Of a stretch of DNA of 64,000 nucleotides, positions 824-64,000 are shown in pieces. The notes under the pieces were generated by a model. That model was given only the letters and a program-made list of their open reading frames with translations, had not been told where the DNA came from and made no database searches. Source of the DNA: Deltaproteobacteria bacterium (GTDB lineage: Bacteria > Myxococcota_A > UBA9042 > DTJE01). Where the stretch lies: contig JAKPOP010000017.1 of assembly GCA_029547805.1 (NCBI GenBank), forward strand, positions 372,001 through 436,000, read 5' to 3'. The number at the start of each line of letters is the position of its first letter. Positions within the stretch are counted from its first letter, which is position 1. The position numbers and the translations under genes are program-made.

Positions 824-4960
<4,137 letters not shown>

Positions 4961-8680: not shown

Positions 8681-8756
8681 TGGCAGGGCAGGAGGGATTC
8701 GAACCCCCAACCCGCGGTTTTGGAGACCGCTGCTCTACCGTTAGAGCTACTGCCCT
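8681..8756 (-). tRNA. tRNA-Trp (anticodon CCA)
   Basis: The 76-nt gene folds into a full cloverleaf. The acceptor stem is AGGGCAG/CTGCCCT and the anticodon loop is CTCCAAA with CCA. The T arm contains GGTTCGAATCC, and the 3' CCA is encoded. It lies between rpmG and secE, where tRNA-Trp is found in many bacteria, and is probably cut from the operon transcript. Confidence 0.97.
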
Positions 8757-8801
8757 GTCGGGAGGCAACCTCCGTTCCCTCCCCGTGAAGGCCCACCCCG
8801 C

Positions 8802-8984
8802 TCACTTCACTTCCTTGAACTGGGTGTGCTTCCGCTCGAACTTGCAGTACTTCCGCAGCTCGAGGCGGGCCGTGGTCTTCTTCTTGTTCTTCTGGGTCAC
8901 GTACCGGGCGACGCCAGGCAGCCCGCTCTTCCGGCAGGACTGGCATTCCAACTGGATGTTGACCCGGTTCTCTTTCTTCGCCAT
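8802..8984 (-). CDS. rpmG: 50S ribosomal protein L33
   Basis: L33 is a small large-subunit protein, here 60 residues. It has one complete CxxC pair (CQSC, about residues 14-17). In place of the second pair it has only one cysteine (KYCKFERKHTQ). It is therefore an intermediate between the zinc-binding and zinc-free forms and probably does not bind zinc fully. The C-terminal block RLELRKYC-FERKHTQFKEVK is typical. It lies 85 nt after tuf and 45 nt before tRNA-Trp. Confidence 0.95.
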   Translation of the reverse strand: MAKKENRVNIQLECQSCRKSGLPGVARYVTQKNKKKTTARLELRKYCKFERKHTQFKEVK

Positions 8985-9069
8985 GGCAGCCTCGCCTTCC
9001 AGCTGCGGAACACCAGGCCCGGCGGGTCCTCTCGGACTCCGCCGATGCCCGGGTCACCCGCCCGCACGG

Positions 9070-10263
<1,194 letters not shown>

Positions 10264-10350
10264 GACCGATCCTCCTTGACTTTCAACGACTCCCCTTGCC
10301 AGCGCAACTGCCACATCCCGGCCACCCGACCAGGACCGGACCATCGCCCC

Positions 10351-10425
10351 TGGAGCCTTCGAGCAGATTTGAACTGCCGACCCCCTCCTTACCAAGGAGG
10401 TGCTCTACCCCTGAGCTACGAAGGC
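10351..10425 (-). tRNA. tRNA-Thr (anticodon GGT)
   Basis: The 75-nt cloverleaf has the acceptor stem GCCTTCG/CGAAGGC and the anticodon loop TTGGTAA. The 3' CCA is encoded. It is the last of four clustered tRNAs and lies 87 nt before tuf. Confidence 0.96.
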
Positions 10426-10453
10426 CTCGTCCAGGCAATCCCCGAACCCAAAG

Positions 10454-10526
10454 AGCGGGAAACGGGATTCGAACCCGCGACGTCGAGCTTGGAAGGCTCG
10501 CGCTCTGCCAACTGAGCTATTCCCGC
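10454..10526 (-). tRNA. tRNA-Gly (anticodon TCC)
   Basis: The 73-nt cloverleaf has the acceptor stem GCGGGAA/TTCCCGC. The anticodon loop is CTTCCAA (TCC). The T arm GGGTTCGAATCCC is intact. CCA is not encoded, unlike in the neighbouring tRNA-Thr(GGT). Confidence 0.96.
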
Positions 10527-10582
10527 CCACCCGACTCGTCCCCATCTCGGGGGGCTTGCCAATCTTCAAAGAACCGCACCGG

Positions 10583-10665
10583 TGGAGGGGGGAGGATTCG
10601 AACCTCCGAAGCCATCTGGCAGCAGATTTACAGTCTGACCCCTTTGACCGCTCGGGAACCCCTCC
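10583..10665 (-). tRNA. tRNA-Tyr (anticodon GTA)
   Basis: This is a class II tRNA of 83 nt with a long variable arm. The acceptor stem is GGAGGGG/CCCCTCC and the anticodon loop is CTGTAAA (GTA). The T arm GAGGTTCGAATCCTC is intact. CCA is not encoded (the gene is followed by CCG). Confidence 0.96.
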
Positions 10666-10692
10666 AGCACCAAAGTCCCCCAACCGGCGCAG

Positions 10693-10765
10693 AGCTGGCG
10701 ACGGGAATCGAACCCACAACCGCCTGATTACAAATCAGGTGCTCTGCCGATTGAGCTACGCCAGC
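10693..10765 (-). tRNA. tRNA-Thr (anticodon TGT)
   Basis: The 73-nt cloverleaf has the acceptor stem GCTGGCG/CGCCAGC and the anticodon loop TTTGTAA (TGT). CCA is not encoded. It is the first gene of the tRNA-tuf-rpoBC locus and begins about 32 nt downstream of a strong promoter. Confidence 0.96.
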
Positions 10766-58175: not shown

Positions 58176-58577
58176 CTCCGCCGCTCCCAGCAGACGCCCG
58201 GGAGTGTAGAGGCGACCGCGGGGCAGGGTCAAACCGACGCCGCCGAAGGGCGCACCGGAGGTTCCCTGTTCATTCGGGAGGGCTGTCCCTGACCCGCGCC
58301 CCGATTTCTCAGACATGACCTTGGGGGAATGATCCCAGGTTCACGTCCAAGGGAACCGGGTGCAGGTCACGTGAAGCAACACGCGATGGGGAGACACCGA
58401 TCGACCTTGTGGACGGGGACCTGCTCTCGGACAATCTTCGCGAGCTGAATCTTGGGGTCAACGTCGAGACCATTGAGCGAGTTACCGTCGCCCCTTCTTG
58501 GTTCCATAGCTTGTAGTTGATGCGGCCAACAATCGATTGAACGGTGTTATCATCCGGTCGTTCCCGGGAGGGTGAGC
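58176..58577. other. 402-nt spacer at the island border, no gene seen
   Basis: The right half (from about 58,320) is clearly lower in GC than the left half, so the composition border of the island lies here. Short frames on the minus strand overlap the 5' end of the methyltransferase gene but have no ribosome site or family features. A small inverted repeat with TTCACGT and ACGTGAA lies at about 58,339-58,374. Confidence 0.5.
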
Positions 58578-59072
58578 ATGTCTGGGACAACCATCGACGA
58601 CTACATTAAGGGGCGAGTTGCGCAACAACTCGACTACTTCGAGAAGAAGGCCGCTGTTAGCCAGCAGAACTATGCCCGACTCAAGGGCACCGCGATTGCA
58701 TGCAACATCCTCACAACGATGTCGATTGCCCTCGCATTCACGGTGCCCCCCCCCTATCAGACCTATATGGGAATCTTGTCCCTGGTCCTCTCAACGGTCG
58801 TTCTCGCGACGTATCAGTGGGAGGAGTTCAAGAACTACGGTTCGAACTGGAGTAAGTTCCGGCTTGTAGCCGAGCATCTGAAGTCAGAGATTGTTATGTT
58901 CCGACACGGTGTGGGCAAGTACTCCGTCGCCACGCCCGAGGAACGTGAGCGGCGCTTCATTGAGGCAGTAGAAGGGCTCATTCAGGGAACAGATCTTAAC
59001 TATTTCTCGGTCATGGTTGAGCCTGGAAGTAGAACAGAAACAAAGATTCAGAACTACGTACCAGGATCCTAA
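58578..59072 (+). CDS. SLATT-superfamily (DUF4231) two-helix membrane protein
   Basis: This 164-residue protein matches the DUF4231 branch of the SLATT superfamily: a charged N-terminal helix (DYFEKKAAVSQQNYARLKG), two close transmembrane helices (about 38-56 and 63-80) and a C-terminal helical part with WEEFKNYGSNWSKFRLVAEHLKSEIVMFRHGVGKY. SLATT proteins are predicted pore-forming effectors of nucleotide-signalling or other conflict systems. No cyclase or SLOG gene is adjacent here. The ATG at 58578 has GGGAGG at the right distance. The IS element at 59072 supplies the last base of its stop codon, yet leaves the protein full length. Confidence 0.8.
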   Translation: MSGTTIDDYIKGRVAQQLDYFEKKAAVSQQNYARLKGTAIACNILTTMSIALAFTVPPPYQTYMGILSLVLSTVVLATYQWEEFKNYGSNWSKFRLVAEHLKSEIVMFRHGVGKYSVATPEERERRFIEAVEGLIQGTDLNYFSVMVEPGSRTETKIQNYVPGS

Positions 59073-59088
59073 GAGCGTCTAACAAAAC
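59072..59088 (+). repeat. Left terminal inverted repeat of the IS
   Basis: Seventeen bases, AGAGCGTCTAACAAAAC, identical to the reverse complement of 59937-59953. The last base belongs to the transposase stop codon (59088-59090 on the minus strand). Confidence 0.9.
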
Positions 59089-59887
59089 TATTCTCCCAGC
59101 AGGTGGTTGAGGCAGACGAGGGCGCAGGCGATATGGAGGAATGCCTCGTGGATGTCGGCCCTGCGCTCCCACCGCATGGCGAGGCAGCGGTGGACGTGGA
59201 TCCAGGCGATGGAGCGCTCCACGACCCAGCGGTGCTTGCCGAGGCGCTCCTTGGAATCGACGCCGCGGCGGGCGATGCGGGGCTGGATGCGCCTGCGGCG
59301 GCAGGCCAGACGGCACCGCCGGTAGTCGTAGCCCTTGTCGGCGTGGAGTTTGTCGGGGCGCTTCCGGGGGCGTCCCCGTCGGCCCCGGACGGGGCGAACC
59401 CGGTCGAGGAGCGGCTCCAGTGCCATGCTGTCGTGCTGGTTGGCCGGGCCGATCATCGCCGCGAGTGGGATGCCCTGGCCATCGACGAGGATGTGGTGCT
59501 TCGTCCCGAGTTTCCCCCGGTCCGTAGGATTCGGGCCAGTTTCAGGGCCCCCTTTTTTGCCCGGATGCTGCTGGAGTCCAAGCAGGCCCGGGCCCAGTCG
59601 ATGCGCTCGTCCTGCCCCAACTCGTCCAGCAGAACCTGGTGGATGCGCGCCCAGACCCCAGCCTCGTGCCAGTCCCGAAGGCGACGCCAGCAGGTCATGC
59701 CAGACCCGCAGCCCATCTCCTTGGGCAGGTACTCCCACGGGCATCCCGTCTTCAGCAAGAAGAGGATGCCCGTCAGCGCCATCCGGCTGTCCAAGCGCGG
59801 CCGCCCGCCCTTCGGCTTCGGCGGCTCGGGCGGCAGCAGCGGTTCGATCCGGGTCCACAACTCGTCGGGAAGGAGGGGCTTTGCCAT
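59088..59887 (-). CDS. IS5-family DDE transposase made by programmed -1 frameshift
   Basis: The first frame (59887 down to 59453) starts MAKPLLPDELWTRIEPLLPPEPPKPKGGRP and carries the first catalytic Asp in ACLDSSSIRAKKG. The second frame, -1 relative to the first, continues with GTKHHILVDGQGIPLAA, the second Asp in LHADKGYD and the Glu in WVVERSIAW. The join is at the slippery heptamer A_AAA_AAG (plus-strand 59552-59558). The full product is about 266 residues, the normal size for IS427-type transposases. If no shift occurs, a 144-residue truncated protein forms, which may act as a regulator. Confidence 0.88.
59552..59558 (-). promoter_or_regulatory. Slippery heptamer A_AAA_AAG for -1 frameshifting
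   Basis: In the first transposase frame the codons read GCA-AAA-AAG; slipping back one base gives AAA-AAA-GGG in the second frame. The downstream sequence is GC-rich (GGGGGCCC) and could form a stimulatory structure. This type of site is known in the IS427 group. Confidence 0.8.
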
Positions 59888-59936
59888 GCCCCCTCATGTA
59901 ACCCCCCTCACCAACGACCGCCAAGCTCACGACATG

Positions 59937-59953
59937 GTTTTGTTAGACGCTCT
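59937..59953 (-). repeat. Right terminal inverted repeat of the IS
   Basis: The mate of the left repeat, perfect over 17 bases and located 49 nt upstream of the transposase start codon. Confidence 0.9.
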
Positions 59954-60076
59954 TAGGTCATGCCGCAGTATTTGAAACCGCACACGCCTGTAGACGAGCA
60001 ATCGCGATAATGCAAAAGAACGCGACAGGTTGGGCAGTCCTCCCGTGATCACCCAGCACCAATCGAAGCGACGATG

Positions 60077-60508
60077 CTAGGCGGCCAAGAACTTCACGCG
60101 TGTCTCTCCACGATATTTGTAGACAACGATTTGCGCAATCGGTGTAGCCGCAGCTCCCACTAGAGCACCAACAATCGCTCCAAGCCCTGCCGCCACAAGA
60201 ACGGGGCCTAGGGTGACGGGATTGCCCGCAAGTATGGCAGTGGCAACGGCGGCACCAGCTCCAACTCCTGCCCCAACAGCGGCACCAGTTCCCGCGTTCA
60301 CCAAATACTCTTGGAGAGCAGCATGTCGAACCACGATTTTGACATCGTAGTCACCTACCGTGGCCCCGATTATCTTCAGCACCCGTTCAGGAGCAACACC
60401 ATCTCGAAAGCGGAGTATTACGTCCCTACCATCGTCAGCGTAGCGATTCACAGCCTTTGCGAGGGTGTCGGCCCTTCTACCATGTGCGTCCATCAAGACC
60501 TGCGACAT
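60077..60508 (-). CDS. Small membrane protein with a glycine-zipper hairpin, unknown function
   Basis: This 143-residue protein was not recognised. The N-terminal half is soluble (DAHGRRADTLAKAVNRYADDGRDVILRF ... GDYDVKIVVRHAALQEYLVN). The second half is a glycine-zipper-like hairpin of two hydrophobic stretches (about 75-97 and 100-125) rich in G-x3-G (AGTGAAVGAGVGAGAAVA, AGLGAIVGALVGAAATP). Such hairpins occur in pore-forming or membrane-disrupting proteins. It starts 206 nt after the attC-like site, ends 42 nt before a lone GTTGGGC box, and is the nearest cassette gene to the SLATT gene. The start at 60508 has GGAG upstream; an in-frame start at 60628 is less likely. Confidence 0.6.
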   Translation of the reverse strand: MSQVLMDAHGRRADTLAKAVNRYADDGRDVILRFRDGVAPERVLKIIGATVGDYDVKIVVRHAALQEYLVNAGTGAAVGAGVGAGAAVATAILAGNPVTLGPVLVAAGLGAIVGALVGAAATPIAQIVVYKYRGETRVKFLAA

Positions 60509-61072
60509 CGGACTGCTCCGAAGAAAAGCCGTACAGATTTTCTTCTGACTTGAGTCGAGATGCAACCGATCTGCCTTGTTTGCCGACGAGAAGGTGACAA
60601 ACATGCGAGCGTAAGCGTGATTGCCCAAGTGGAACCAAGGAAGAGCAAGCCAAGCACGACGCGGCTTCTGGGGCTCCGGTGGTTCTACCCGGAGCAGGGG
60701 CTTTTCTTGATCCGCCCAACGGCTTCGCAGTTGACCTGCAAAGTCCGGTGGCTGGCCCCGGGGAGGGCCGAGGCGCGACGCTTGCTGGCCGGCCCTGCCC
60801 TGCTGGAGCCGCTCGCGCTACTGCCCGGCAGGGCCGGCCGTGCGAGCGGCGTGTCGGGCCCGGACGGGGCCTGGCCAGGCGGCGCGGTCCCTGCAGGCCC
60901 GCCCAATTCCCACGCACCGAAACGCCCCAGGTGCAGATCCAAGCGGGCCGCGTGCAGGGACCGTGACGACAGGTGTTTGTCCGTTCAAGCCGCTGGTTGG
61001 GCCGCCACCTGGGATTGTTTTCTTCTCATTGAAGCTCAGCTGTTTCCAGAAGGCTCTCGACCGGCAGTGTAT
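60509..61072. other. 564-nt gene-free stretch with an attC-like site
   Basis: This stretch holds attC-like site 2 (60714-61002) and the upstream region of the 60077-60508 gene. Frames crossing it on either strand are Pro/Gly/Arg-rich artefacts of the GC-rich palindromes. A possible -35/-10 pair (TTGCAT, 17 nt, GAAAAT) on the minus strand just upstream of 60508 is weak. Confidence 0.5.
60714..61002 (-). other. attC-like recombination site 2 (289 bp)
   Basis: The element is bounded by GCCCAAC (60714-60720) and GTTGGGC (60996-61002), which fit the attC boxes RYYYAAC and GTTRRRY and pair perfectly. The inner arms pair only in part. The centre holds further inverted repeats, such as GCCGGCCCTGCC with GGCAGGGCCGGC and CGGTCCCTGCA with TGCAGGGACCG. 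It starts 71 nt after the stop of the GIY-YIG-like gene. The length exceeds the usual 57-141 bp of attC, so this call is tentative. Confidence 0.5.
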
Positions 61073-61417
61073 CTAGACGTTGCGACGCTTGATCACGACA
61101 TAGAGAAAGTAGGGAGGTTCTCCAAAATTCCCGCCACCACCGGCATTGATGTTCCTGCAGAGTTGATACGGCTGGTAGTGTTTAACGAGTCTGGTTTCGG
61201 CTTGCCTCACGAAGTTCAGAGAACGTGTGCGGTAAAGCACAATCATTTCGTCGTAATGTTCACTGTAGTCGGGTTGCGCGGCTCTCGCCTTGGGCTTGTT
61301 CGTGATCCCAATTTTGAATCGTCGTACACGGTCGCTACGTGTGAGCGCAGACAGTCTTCTGATGAAATCCATATTCTTCGGCCAACCAGTATCGTGCTCC
61401 ATCCGAAGTTTCAACAT
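61073..61417 (-). CDS. Small GIY-YIG-like protein
   Basis: This 114-residue protein seems related to the GIY-YIG nuclease fold. The start of the core looks like RFKIGITNKPKARAAQ (compare K-I-G-x-T-x-x-P-x-x-R). A catalytic-type Glu is in RQAETRLVKHY and an Asn in CRNINAGGGG. The first GIY strand is not clear, so activity is uncertain. The ATG at 61417 is close to AGGGG; a GTG lies directly upstream. It follows the 103-residue gene by 40 nt, and an attC-like site follows 71 nt after its stop. Confidence 0.5.
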   Translation of the reverse strand: MLKLRMEHDTGWPKNMDFIRRLSALTRSDRVRRFKIGITNKPKARAAQPDYSEHYDEMIVLYRTRSLNFVRQAETRLVKHYQPYQLCRNINAGGGGNFGEPPYFLYVVIKRRNV

Positions 61418-61457
61418 CACACCCCTTTAGGTTGCGCGTGTGTTTAGAATCGCGGGA

Positions 61458-61769
61458 CTATTCGCTCGCGCGTCGCGCGCGGAGGTCAATCATTGTCTTA
61501 TAAGCTGAGACGAACTGGCAAGCCTCAAGTTCAGAACGTAGTGAGACAACAGCACGGTCGAGTTCATCACCCTCAACAATTGGATTTCCAAACCAATACG
61601 TACCTTTGCTGAACTTCAAACTCAACGCCTGGAATCGCTCACACTTGACCATTATCGTACCGGGTCCGCCCTTCTCGTTGAAATCGACGGTCACGATCCC
61701 TTCGTATCCATCGAGAGACTGAAGAATTTTCCGAATGCGGTTCTCTTGATTTTTCGTCAGCGTAGCCAT
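61458..61769 (-). CDS. Small protein of unknown function in a putative cassette
   Basis: This 103-residue protein was not recognised. It is soluble and mixed alpha/beta by eye (TKNQENRIRKILQSLDGYEGIVTVDFNEKGG), with no cysteine motif or membrane segment. I prefer the ATG at 61769, which has GGGGGAAT upstream; an earlier ATG at 61784 lacks a ribosome site. A near-consensus promoter lies about 36 nt upstream, so it leads the two-gene unit with the GIY-YIG-like gene. Confidence 0.6.
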   Translation of the reverse strand: MATLTKNQENRIRKILQSLDGYEGIVTVDFNEKGGPGTIMVKCERFQALSLKFSKGTYWFGNPIVEGDELDRAVVSLRSELEACQFVSAYKTMIDLRARRASE

Positions 61770-61804
61770 TTTGTATTCCCCCATGCCGTAGAACCAGCGC
61801 GCTA

Positions 61805-61833
61805 ATTATGCCAGTCGCCCGGAAAAGTGACAA
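61805..61833 (-). promoter_or_regulatory. Cassette-borne sigma70-type promoter
   Basis: On the minus strand TTGTCA (61828-61833) is exactly 17 nt from CATAAT (61805-61810); both hexamers match the consensus at five of six positions. It lies about 36 nt before the ATG at 61769 and inside the putative cassette, so the two genes need no external promoter. Confidence 0.7.
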
Positions 61834-61995
61834 GCACCCCAATACTTACTGAATTGAAACGGCGAATCATGAGGTGACCACTGCGTTATCGCCAACGGCC
61901 TATGGCCACCTCTATCCAACTTCTTCGGCCAGGAGAAGTGGCGGTGCCACTTACGTCTCACGGTTGTGGCTCAACGCGAAGGCTGTTCTCGGTCG

Positions 61996-62192
61996 GCCCA
62001 ACGGGTCGCGGATAAGCTGCAAAGCCGACCCCCGAAGGGGGTGGCACGGGGCTTGCCCGCGCGAGTAGCTTCGACGGCGAGGGCCGCGACCGCCGTCCTG
62101 ACGAACGACTTGTCTCGGGACGCCCGCCTGCCACAGGACCGCGGTGCAAGCCTTCGTGCCAAGGCTTTGTCAGCTTCATCCGCTTGTTAGGC
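61996..62192 (-). other. attC-like recombination site 1 (197 bp)
   Basis: Bounded by GCCCAAC (61996-62002) and GTTAGGC (62186-62192). The arms pair well: the left arm reads CGGATAAGCTGCAAAGCC, while the complement of the right arm reads CGGATGAAGCTGACAAAGCC, so the right arm has two unpaired bases like the extrahelical bases of attC. Pairing continues with GGCACGGGGCTTGC against GGCACGAAGGCTTGC. A small hairpin (ACCCCC-GAA-GGGGGT) is inserted in the left arm. The asymmetry puts the cassette genes on the minus strand. It lies 67 nt after the stop of the ATPase gene. Confidence 0.65.
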
Positions 62193-62258
62193 GGCGCCGG
62201 GGACGTTCGGGTGGGGGACGGCGGTTAGAAGGAGTGGGCGAGCGAAAAGAACCTGACC

Positions 62259-63833
62259 TCACGCTCCTTCCGGCGACTCGTCGGCGAACTCATCCTCGTC
62301 CAACTCGTACTCAGCGCCCAGAGAGAGGGTTCGGTCGATGAGGCGCCGAACACGCTGGTCGACGACAGAATACTCGTGGGCAGGCTTGCCTCCGACACCG
62401 CCTTCAGCAGGGCGGGATCCGGTGAGGGTTACGATTCCAGTATCGGTCCAGGTAGAGATTCGGTTTCGCGCGGAATTGGGGTTCATCTTGAACGCGACCT
62501 GGAGATCTCGATTCGTGAAGAGGTTCTTGCCGAGCCGAAGAATCTGCTGGAGGACGACCTTGGAGTTGGAGTACATCCGCTTGGCGGTGTCGATCGCATA
62601 CTGGTCCAAGGCTGCCTCAATGGAGGCGGGCGAGAGAAGGGGTGGCGGTTCGATGTCGGTCGTCAGTTCATCATGCTCCCGGACGACCGTGTCCAGAATC
62701 CTGATGAGTTCCCGAGGCGACTGCATCGAGATCTCCACGATCTCCCGCAAGGCAGTGTTGGAATCAACCGTCGGATCGCATAGTTGAGCGAAGGAGACAA
62801 CCTTCTTATCAGAGAAGTAGCGCAAGCGCTCGTTCACGAGATTCTGAAGGTAAATGGTAGTCCACGAAATCTCCGCGTTGGCGATCTTGTCGAGACGGAC
62901 GGGGAACTGGTCGTTCGAATATTGCTCGCGAACGCGGTCCCAAAGGAAGAAGCTCCACCCGAATCCGTCCACTTCGAGAAGTTGAGTGTTGGCCAAGATT
63001 GGGAACAGCACCTGGGCAGTGCTCGTGGCTGAATTGCTGGTAAGAGGCGTTTCGTCGACCTTATCGACGAGAACAGTCACCCCAGAGAAGCCAAATGCCT
63101 GCGCAAACTCGACGTATCGCTGTAGCAGGGCTCGCGCGAAGTGAGCCTCGTTCCAGGTCTCTTGAGGTGCGGCAAGCATCGCCTTAAGAGATTCGTCAAC
63201 AGGCACGTCTACGTCGGCTTCCGTGCGGGCCAGAGCCTTCGCGATTTGGCCGATGACCTCGACGATCGAGGTCCATCGCTTCTGAATCCAGAGGCTGCTG
63301 CGACCCGTCCACGCCTGATTGAGCAGTTTGAGTGCTTGGGTCGCAGAAATATCGCGGGTTACTTGAGGGCGAGACAAGTAGAACTTATCGACCAGGGTGA
63401 CGGCAAGCTTCTCTTGATCCTTATTGAGCGCACGCACGCAAACGTGCCTCTCCTCGTCGTTGAGACCGGAAAGCCAGACAAGTACCGCCTCGACAACCAA
63501 GTAGCCGAGGTCGAAAAGGAATTCACGTGTTGAAACGCCCCTGAGTCCCCGAACCAGGATTCGCGAGAAGTCGTCTAGGGTGATCGTCAGGGGGGCGGAT
63601 TCATGGCGCTCGACCGCGTTCCAGACCTGCTTGAACAAGGCGAGCCGTGTTGCACTTTTTCCTGCGCCCCGCGCGCCGAATAGAATGAATGACTTTGACG
63701 AGAAGCCCCGTTCCCTAACAGTTGTGTAGTACGGAGGGCGAACGAAGTACTCGTCGATATTCGGCTCGTTTTCGGCGACGTAATTCGCGAATGGATTTTC
63801 TCTGAACCCACGATGATCCAGAAAACGCGACAT
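62259..63833 (-). CDS. P-loop ATPase (Sll1717-like) with C-terminal winged-helix region
   Basis: This 524-residue protein is a P-loop NTPase. Walker A is GARGAGKSATR at about residues 53-63. A Walker-B-like strand VTVLVDKVDE lies near residue 255. The N-terminal FRENPFANYVAENEPNIDEYFV and FILFGARGAGKSA resemble the Sll1717-type P-loop ATPases found in many genomic islands. The C-terminal part (about 420-500) looks like a winged helix (NLFTNRDLQVAFKMNPNSARNRISTW). The ATG has AAGGAGG upstream. It is a single-gene cassette between two attC-like sites. A defence or regulatory role is inferred from the context. Confidence 0.75.
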   Translation of the reverse strand: MSRFLDHRGFRENPFANYVAENEPNIDEYFVRPPYYTTVRERGFSSKSFILFGARGAGKSATRLALFKQVWNAVERHESAPLTITLDDFSRILVRGLRGVSTREFLFDLGYLVVEAVLVWLSGLNDEERHVCVRALNKDQEKLAVTLVDKFYLSRPQVTRDISATQALKLLNQAWTGRSSLWIQKRWTSIVEVIGQIAKALARTEADVDVPVDESLKAMLAAPQETWNEAHFARALLQRYVEFAQAFGFSGVTVLVDKVDETPLTSNSATSTAQVLFPILANTQLLEVDGFGWSFFLWDRVREQYSNDQFPVRLDKIANAEISWTTIYLQNLVNERLRYFSDKKVVSFAQLCDPTVDSNTALREIVEISMQSPRELIRILDTVVREHDELTTDIEPPPLLSPASIEAALDQYAIDTAKRMYSNSKVVLQQILRLGKNLFTNRDLQVAFKMNPNSARNRISTWTDTGIVTLTGSRPAEGGVGGKPAHEYSVVDQRVRRLIDRTLSLGAEYELDEDEFADESPEGA

Positions 63834-63958
63834 CGTGCCTCCTTCCAGGTTTCACGTGAGCGCACAGAAGCCGGCCGGGACTTTAGCATGAGCCTGATGT
63901 TTGCTGAAGAGCAGGTTGCGAATGAAGCTTCCTGTTGCTGAGCTTGGGGCTTGCGCCC

Positions 63959-64000
63959 GCCTAACGGCTTGTGGCTGAGCGGCGGACCCCGGTGCCTGGC
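63959..64000 (-). other. Start of a third attC-like site, cut by the window end
   Basis: GCCTAAC (63959-63965) followed by GGCTTGTGGCTGAGCGGC closely resembles the left ends of sites 1 and 2, which begin GCCCAACGG. The partner GTTRRRY box would lie beyond the window. It is about 126 nt upstream of the ATPase start codon, as expected if it ends the preceding cassette. Confidence 0.45.

Follow-up and report, generated by a model that had tools for sequence, protein, structure and literature searches.

Cassette excision and insertion by the integrase IntI take place on the folded strand of the attC site, as is established for integrons generally. In the chromosomal integron of Vibrio cholerae the attC sites, named VCR, are about 123-126 bp long, and in 'reverse' integrons, as in Treponema, intI is oriented in the same direction as the cassettes. 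The attC sites published range in length from 57 to 142 nt, and their definition includes two extra-helical bases, six nucleotides apart, on the R''-L'' arm (PMC2727003). The terminal part of the site, a structure of 65 nt in VCR (PMC2727003), is regarded as variable and all but dispensable, and sites with a long version of it recombine poorly unless they are delivered as single strands (PMC2727003, PMC8946536). Clusters of attC sites lacking integron-integrases are named CALIN (PMC9024848). Sedentary chromosomal integrons with anti-phage cassettes, the work of Darracq et al. and Kieffer et al., are referred to in PMC13092281, which also reports DS-41.

Here we analyzed a stretch of 64,000 nucleotides, referred to below as the window, which forms the right end of the 436,103-base contig C23 in the 4.08 Mb draft genome of an uncultured Myxococcota species. 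Its last part almost certainly represents the distal portion of a cassette array, that of a chromosomal (sedentary) integron with lineage-specific, long attC sites. Like VCR, these sites are mutually similar and restricted to a lineage, have a large branched terminal structure and lie in a chromosomal array; they differ from VCR in being about 160-290 bp long and in having two conserved arms. The array resembles the integrons with anti-phage cassettes in having a likely defence gene, and differs from them in its Myxococcota host, in an assembly without integrase and in a defence role assigned by homology to DS-41 alone. As in CALIN, at least two attC sites are found in an assembly without intI, but the array of the window is cut by a contig end. 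A likeness to 'reverse' integrons is seen in three genomes of the same family (G011, G031 and G176), in which the sites lie 3' of intI on the same strand, whereas other Myxococcota families display both arrangements.

Results

The 64 kb were scanned blind for R'' and R' boxes that are at least 6/7 complementary, with aligned arms and a spacing of 40-330 bp. The scan returned exactly two attC-like sites, at 60714-61002 and 61996-62192, both on the minus strand, with scores of 9.4 and 16.4. Ten dinucleotide shuffles (640 kb in total) gave three matches at score 8 but no match that reached 9, and a chance match was therefore rejected. These two are the only complete sites in the window; contig C23 stops 103 bp beyond the window, within a third one. 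The putative sites, and the arms of site 1, are as follows.

60714..61002, minus strand: attC site 1, 289 bp; R'' GCCCAAC and R' GTTGGGC, 7/7 paired; nhmmer E 1.9e-11
60880..60968, minus strand: arm A of site 1, conserved hairpin of the terminal structure, CGGTCCCTGC / GCAGGGACCG
60750..60875 (approximate limits), minus strand: arm B of site 1, a GC-rich hairpin of enlarged size
61996..62192, minus strand: attC site 2, 197 bp; R''-L'' arm with a pair of extra-helical bases, spaced six nt apart
63959..64000, minus strand: attC site 3, R'-L' half only; runs on to the contig end at C23:436103

The RYYYAAC boxes that the preliminary description had placed at 60714, 61996 and 63959, and the GTTRRRY boxes, are indeed present. 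Site 2 has R boxes that are 6/7 complementary and site 3 shows R' only. The cleanly paired stem and its two bulged bases, which had been ascribed to site 1, belong to site 2 instead: L'' of site 2 (GCGGAT[G]AAGCTG[A]CAAAGCC) faces L' GGCTTTGCAGCTTATCCGC, and its fold has a z of -5.2, whereas the L''/L' arms of site 1 match poorly despite its perfect R boxes. Extra-helical bases about 6 nt apart, together with an L''/L' stem, are thus a feature of site 2 and of the family consensus, and are unconvincing in site 1. Because its L arms are poor and one of two covariance models (R2, see below) misses it, site 1 may be degenerate and perhaps inactive. It keeps arm A of the family terminal structure, and its arm B carries a further insertion; an enlarged arm B is common to site 3 and a 234-bp site of G031. 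Both complete sites exceed the published attC range, length being descriptive here and not a functional criterion, and none of the window sites has a match in Rfam at the gathering threshold.

That minus-strand genes end shortly before each complete site, as had been pointed out, is confirmed by the spacing measured, since sites 2 and 1 start 66 and 70 nt past the gene ends. The genes, and the cassettes predicted from the expected G^TT cut points, are listed below; for the limits of cassette 1 the cut point was taken from known integron biology.

62002..63964, minus strand: predicted cassette 1; DS-41-like gene and site 2
62259..63833, minus strand: cassette gene, P-loop ATPase of 524 aa; full-length match to the DS41_1 family, above the cut-off of the Sll1717 ATPase family
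60720..62001, minus strand: predicted cassette 2; two small genes and site 1
61458..61784, minus strand: cassette gene, 108 aa, without family match
61073..61420, minus strand: cassette gene, 115 aa; MUG113/T5orf172-type (GIY-YIG-like) domain, just above the Pfam cut-off
60077..60628, minus strand: last gene past site 1, 183 aa, with a glycine-rich stretch; behind it a lone GCCCAAC box (60029-60035) and no complete attC site
59072..59962, minus strand: element of the IS5 family, on the left margin of the islet described below; 97% identical copy in G011

The product of gene 62259-63833 aligns with positions 1-447 of the 448 of the DS41_1 profile (NCBIfam) and scores 364.7 bits, missing the curated cut-off of 370. 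By this cut-off it is a homologue of DS-41 and not a member of the family, and its homology makes an anti-phage function probable.

We then compared the locus with other genomes of the family. Six of the 13 contain intI, namely G011, which belongs to the same genus as the window's genome, and five others. Several homologous long sites are arranged head to tail directly beside intI on contig C57 of G031, eight lie about 1 kb apart with ORFs between them on contig C231 of G060, and contig C95 of G011 carries intI, one cassette gene and one long site. The contigs of G060 and G191 that carry intI break off shortly after its 3' end, which is what a broken array would give. Judged by eye, the cassettes in the arrays of G060 and G031 (loci L064 and L058) include HigA-type and HicB-type antitoxin lookalikes and a MarR-type regulator lookalike. 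The G011 integron (positions 1682-3907 of locus L056, G011:C95) adjoins holB, a chromosomal place different from that of the window array, and the platform may therefore have moved. An integron platform near holB in the window's genome was rejected, as the holB locus there has a SNF2-type helicase gene and no attC.

The similarity of the window to G011, whose compared stretch is identical to the public sequence JAGOKF010000016.1 (Myxococcota bacterium Go_SlDig_bin_299), ends at position 58216. In G011 the SMT/MTHFR gene directly adjoins pdxA, and the islet with its cassette genes is absent; in the window's genome pdxA is located near the start of contig C22, where a ParB-like gene and a small ORF precede it. 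Because the similarity stops at 58216 and pdxA lies near the start of C22, the array most likely fills an islet between SMT/MTHFR and pdxA that has an unassembled gap inside, and from synteny we infer that C23 and C22 are neighbours. The ParB-like gene, which the contig start truncates, and the small ORF occupy C22 1-1135 (locus L183, G000:C22), and both are missing at the G011 locus. A ParB-like gene adjoins intI in G011, in the opposite orientation compared with C22, which hints that the integrase end may lie in the gap. As a general integron neighbour the ParB-like gene was rejected: only G011 and the window's genome have it, and the intI genes of the other family genomes lack such a neighbour.

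On the left margin of the islet, 51 bases (58319-58369) are similar to a sequence of 125 bp that three G011 contigs (C73, C85 and C158) share without a difference at their ends; these 51 bases probably represent one end of a mobile element present in several copies. The plus strand at 58572-59072 encodes a SLATT-domain protein (NF033634, 80.2 bits versus a cut-off of 41), which may be truncated, as its stop codon is located at the border of the IS5 element. The long perfect inverted ends of the latter hold GTCTAAC/GTTAGAC, which mimic attC boxes. Further to the left, five tRNA genes, four of them clustered, are present on the minus strand at 8684-10765.

The absence of an integrase, noted before for the window, extends to the whole assembly (96.7% complete), in which the best matches to intI are Xer-like and far under the cut-off; an integrase elsewhere in the genome was rejected for this reason. 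We infer that the integrase is either located in the unassembled gap to the right of the contig end or lost; the former is possible because the array breaks off at this gap, inside an attC site. An attI site and a cassette promoter would be expected in this gap as well. Loss would make the array a CALIN, that is, a remnant with cassettes that are immobile unless an integrase acts in trans, and we give this reading nearly an even chance. It agrees with the lack of intI in the assembly and in the right flank (C22:1-1200, holding the ParB-like gene and the small ORF), with the degenerate appearance of site 1 and with the IS5 element at the array end. Arguing against loss, attC sites are a common fragmentation point of arrays and the contig breaks inside one, intI lies in relatives on the side of this break, the ParB-like gene at the C22 start has intI as its neighbour in G011, and G011, the sole other genome of the genus examined, contains intI.

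An alignment of 21 family sites (165-178 bp) made with MAFFT revealed two subtypes and long conserved stretches past the L stem, and RNAalifold gave a consensus consisting of the L stem and two arms, A and B, RNA energies being applied here to the fold of what acts as DNA. Compensatory changes were found in 18 of 37 pairs; the values observed were reached in 0 of 500 shuffles, and the signal was lost when pairing partners were slid as a control. Among 43 distinct sites found with the model such changes affect 27 of the 37 pairs, a figure that leans towards the structure because this alignment was fitted to it. The alignments show that a predicted two-armed terminal structure, instead of a small loop, is conserved beyond the L stem.

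The long type is present in eight of the 13 family genomes: all six with intI, and two of the seven without it, the window's genome included (Fisher p 0.02). The suggestion that the sites are unusually long and possibly of a divergent type therefore holds family-wide. Of 284 genomes of the phylum, 12 have the long type, including the eight of the window's family, and it was rejected as a phylum-wide feature; in other Myxococcota families attC sites are mostly 115-153 bp.

These sites could be true attC sites whose two-armed structure has no function, the compensatory changes resulting from palindrome mutation (template switching, hairpin repair) and from the inheritance of two subtypes. We regard this as quite conceivable, though it falls somewhat short of probable. 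Three of the strongest pairs (34-126, 46-110 and 61-99) do split largely by subtype, and swapping the large terminal structure of the Vibrio VCR site barely affected recombination (PMC2727003). However, each subtype taken by itself still shows compensatory changes, in 11 and 10 pairs counted over the entire structure, and some of these pairs belong to arms A and B; long stretches of the site sequence are also kept across genera. The opposite reading, that selection maintains the terminal structure as a functional component of the family attC, unlike the dispensable one of VCR, is put forward tentatively, as a possibility with a little less than even prospects.

Two covariance models were applied to the sites. 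Model R1 was built from the window's own family with the window sequences left out, and model R2 only from attC sites of other Myxococcota families, 20 in number and all near intI, with stem pairs backed by compensatory changes. R1 detected sites 2, 1 and 3 in the window at E 1.9e-9, 2.7e-7 and 0.003 (0.0028), corresponding to 52.7, 42.1 and 22.4 bits, and returned sites 1 and 2 only when run genome-wide at E <= 0.01; these E-values, like those of R2, are rough because calibration was short. R2 detected site 2 (E 5.4e-11, 52.1 bits), which was its sole good match genome-wide, and the fragment of site 3 (E 7e-4, 23 bits). Thus, an attC covariance check of the proposed array bears out all three sites with R1 and sites 2 and 3 with R2, but not site 1 with R2. 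Three lines of sequence evidence, the tandem homologues in the family, the match to R2 and the extra-helical bases of site 2, indicate that the long sites of the window are attC. Palindromic intergenic repeats (MITE- or REP-like) that are unrelated to integrons and resemble attC by chance would account for strong palindromes with conserved hairpins between small genes, but are hardly credible and were rejected on intI adjacency and the independent model R2, since the homologues adjoin intI in tandem with ORFs, every family genome with intI carries long sites (6/6), and the R boxes and the two extra-helical bases six nt apart sit at attC positions.

Discussion

The results support the view that the right end of the window is a genuine integron cassette array with a new type of attC. 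The preliminary description had read this region as an array or attC cluster, which agrees with the homologous sites arranged head to tail beside intI in relatives, with the R2 match to site 2 and with the islet that G011 lacks. Two further leads that it gave were productive in part: beyond 64 kb, site 3 continues to the contig end and no intI appears in the assembly, and in the comparison with relatives one genome, the same-genus G011, lacks the entire islet, cassette genes included, at this locus.

Each minus-strand cassette has an attC site behind its gene or pair of genes, and in single-stranded form this site would fold via R''/R' and L''/L'. By analogy with known integrons, the tyrosine recombinase IntI would cut R' at G^TT, thereby excising or inserting cassettes; the mobility of the window's copy would depend on an integrase absent from the assembly. 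Homology suggests that the cassettes probably provide accessory functions, including anti-phage defence.

By default, IntegronFinder caps attC length at about 200 bp. Long sites such as these may be missed or clipped by finders with a length cap, and Myxococcota integrons and defence cassettes in uncultured lineages may therefore be under-counted. This lineage keeps an unusually large terminal structure with compensatory changes in its arms, which makes the role of that structure directly testable. If it is indeed a working part of the site, it might serve in recognition by the lineage's own IntI or by a host protein, or might keep the site folded during replication.
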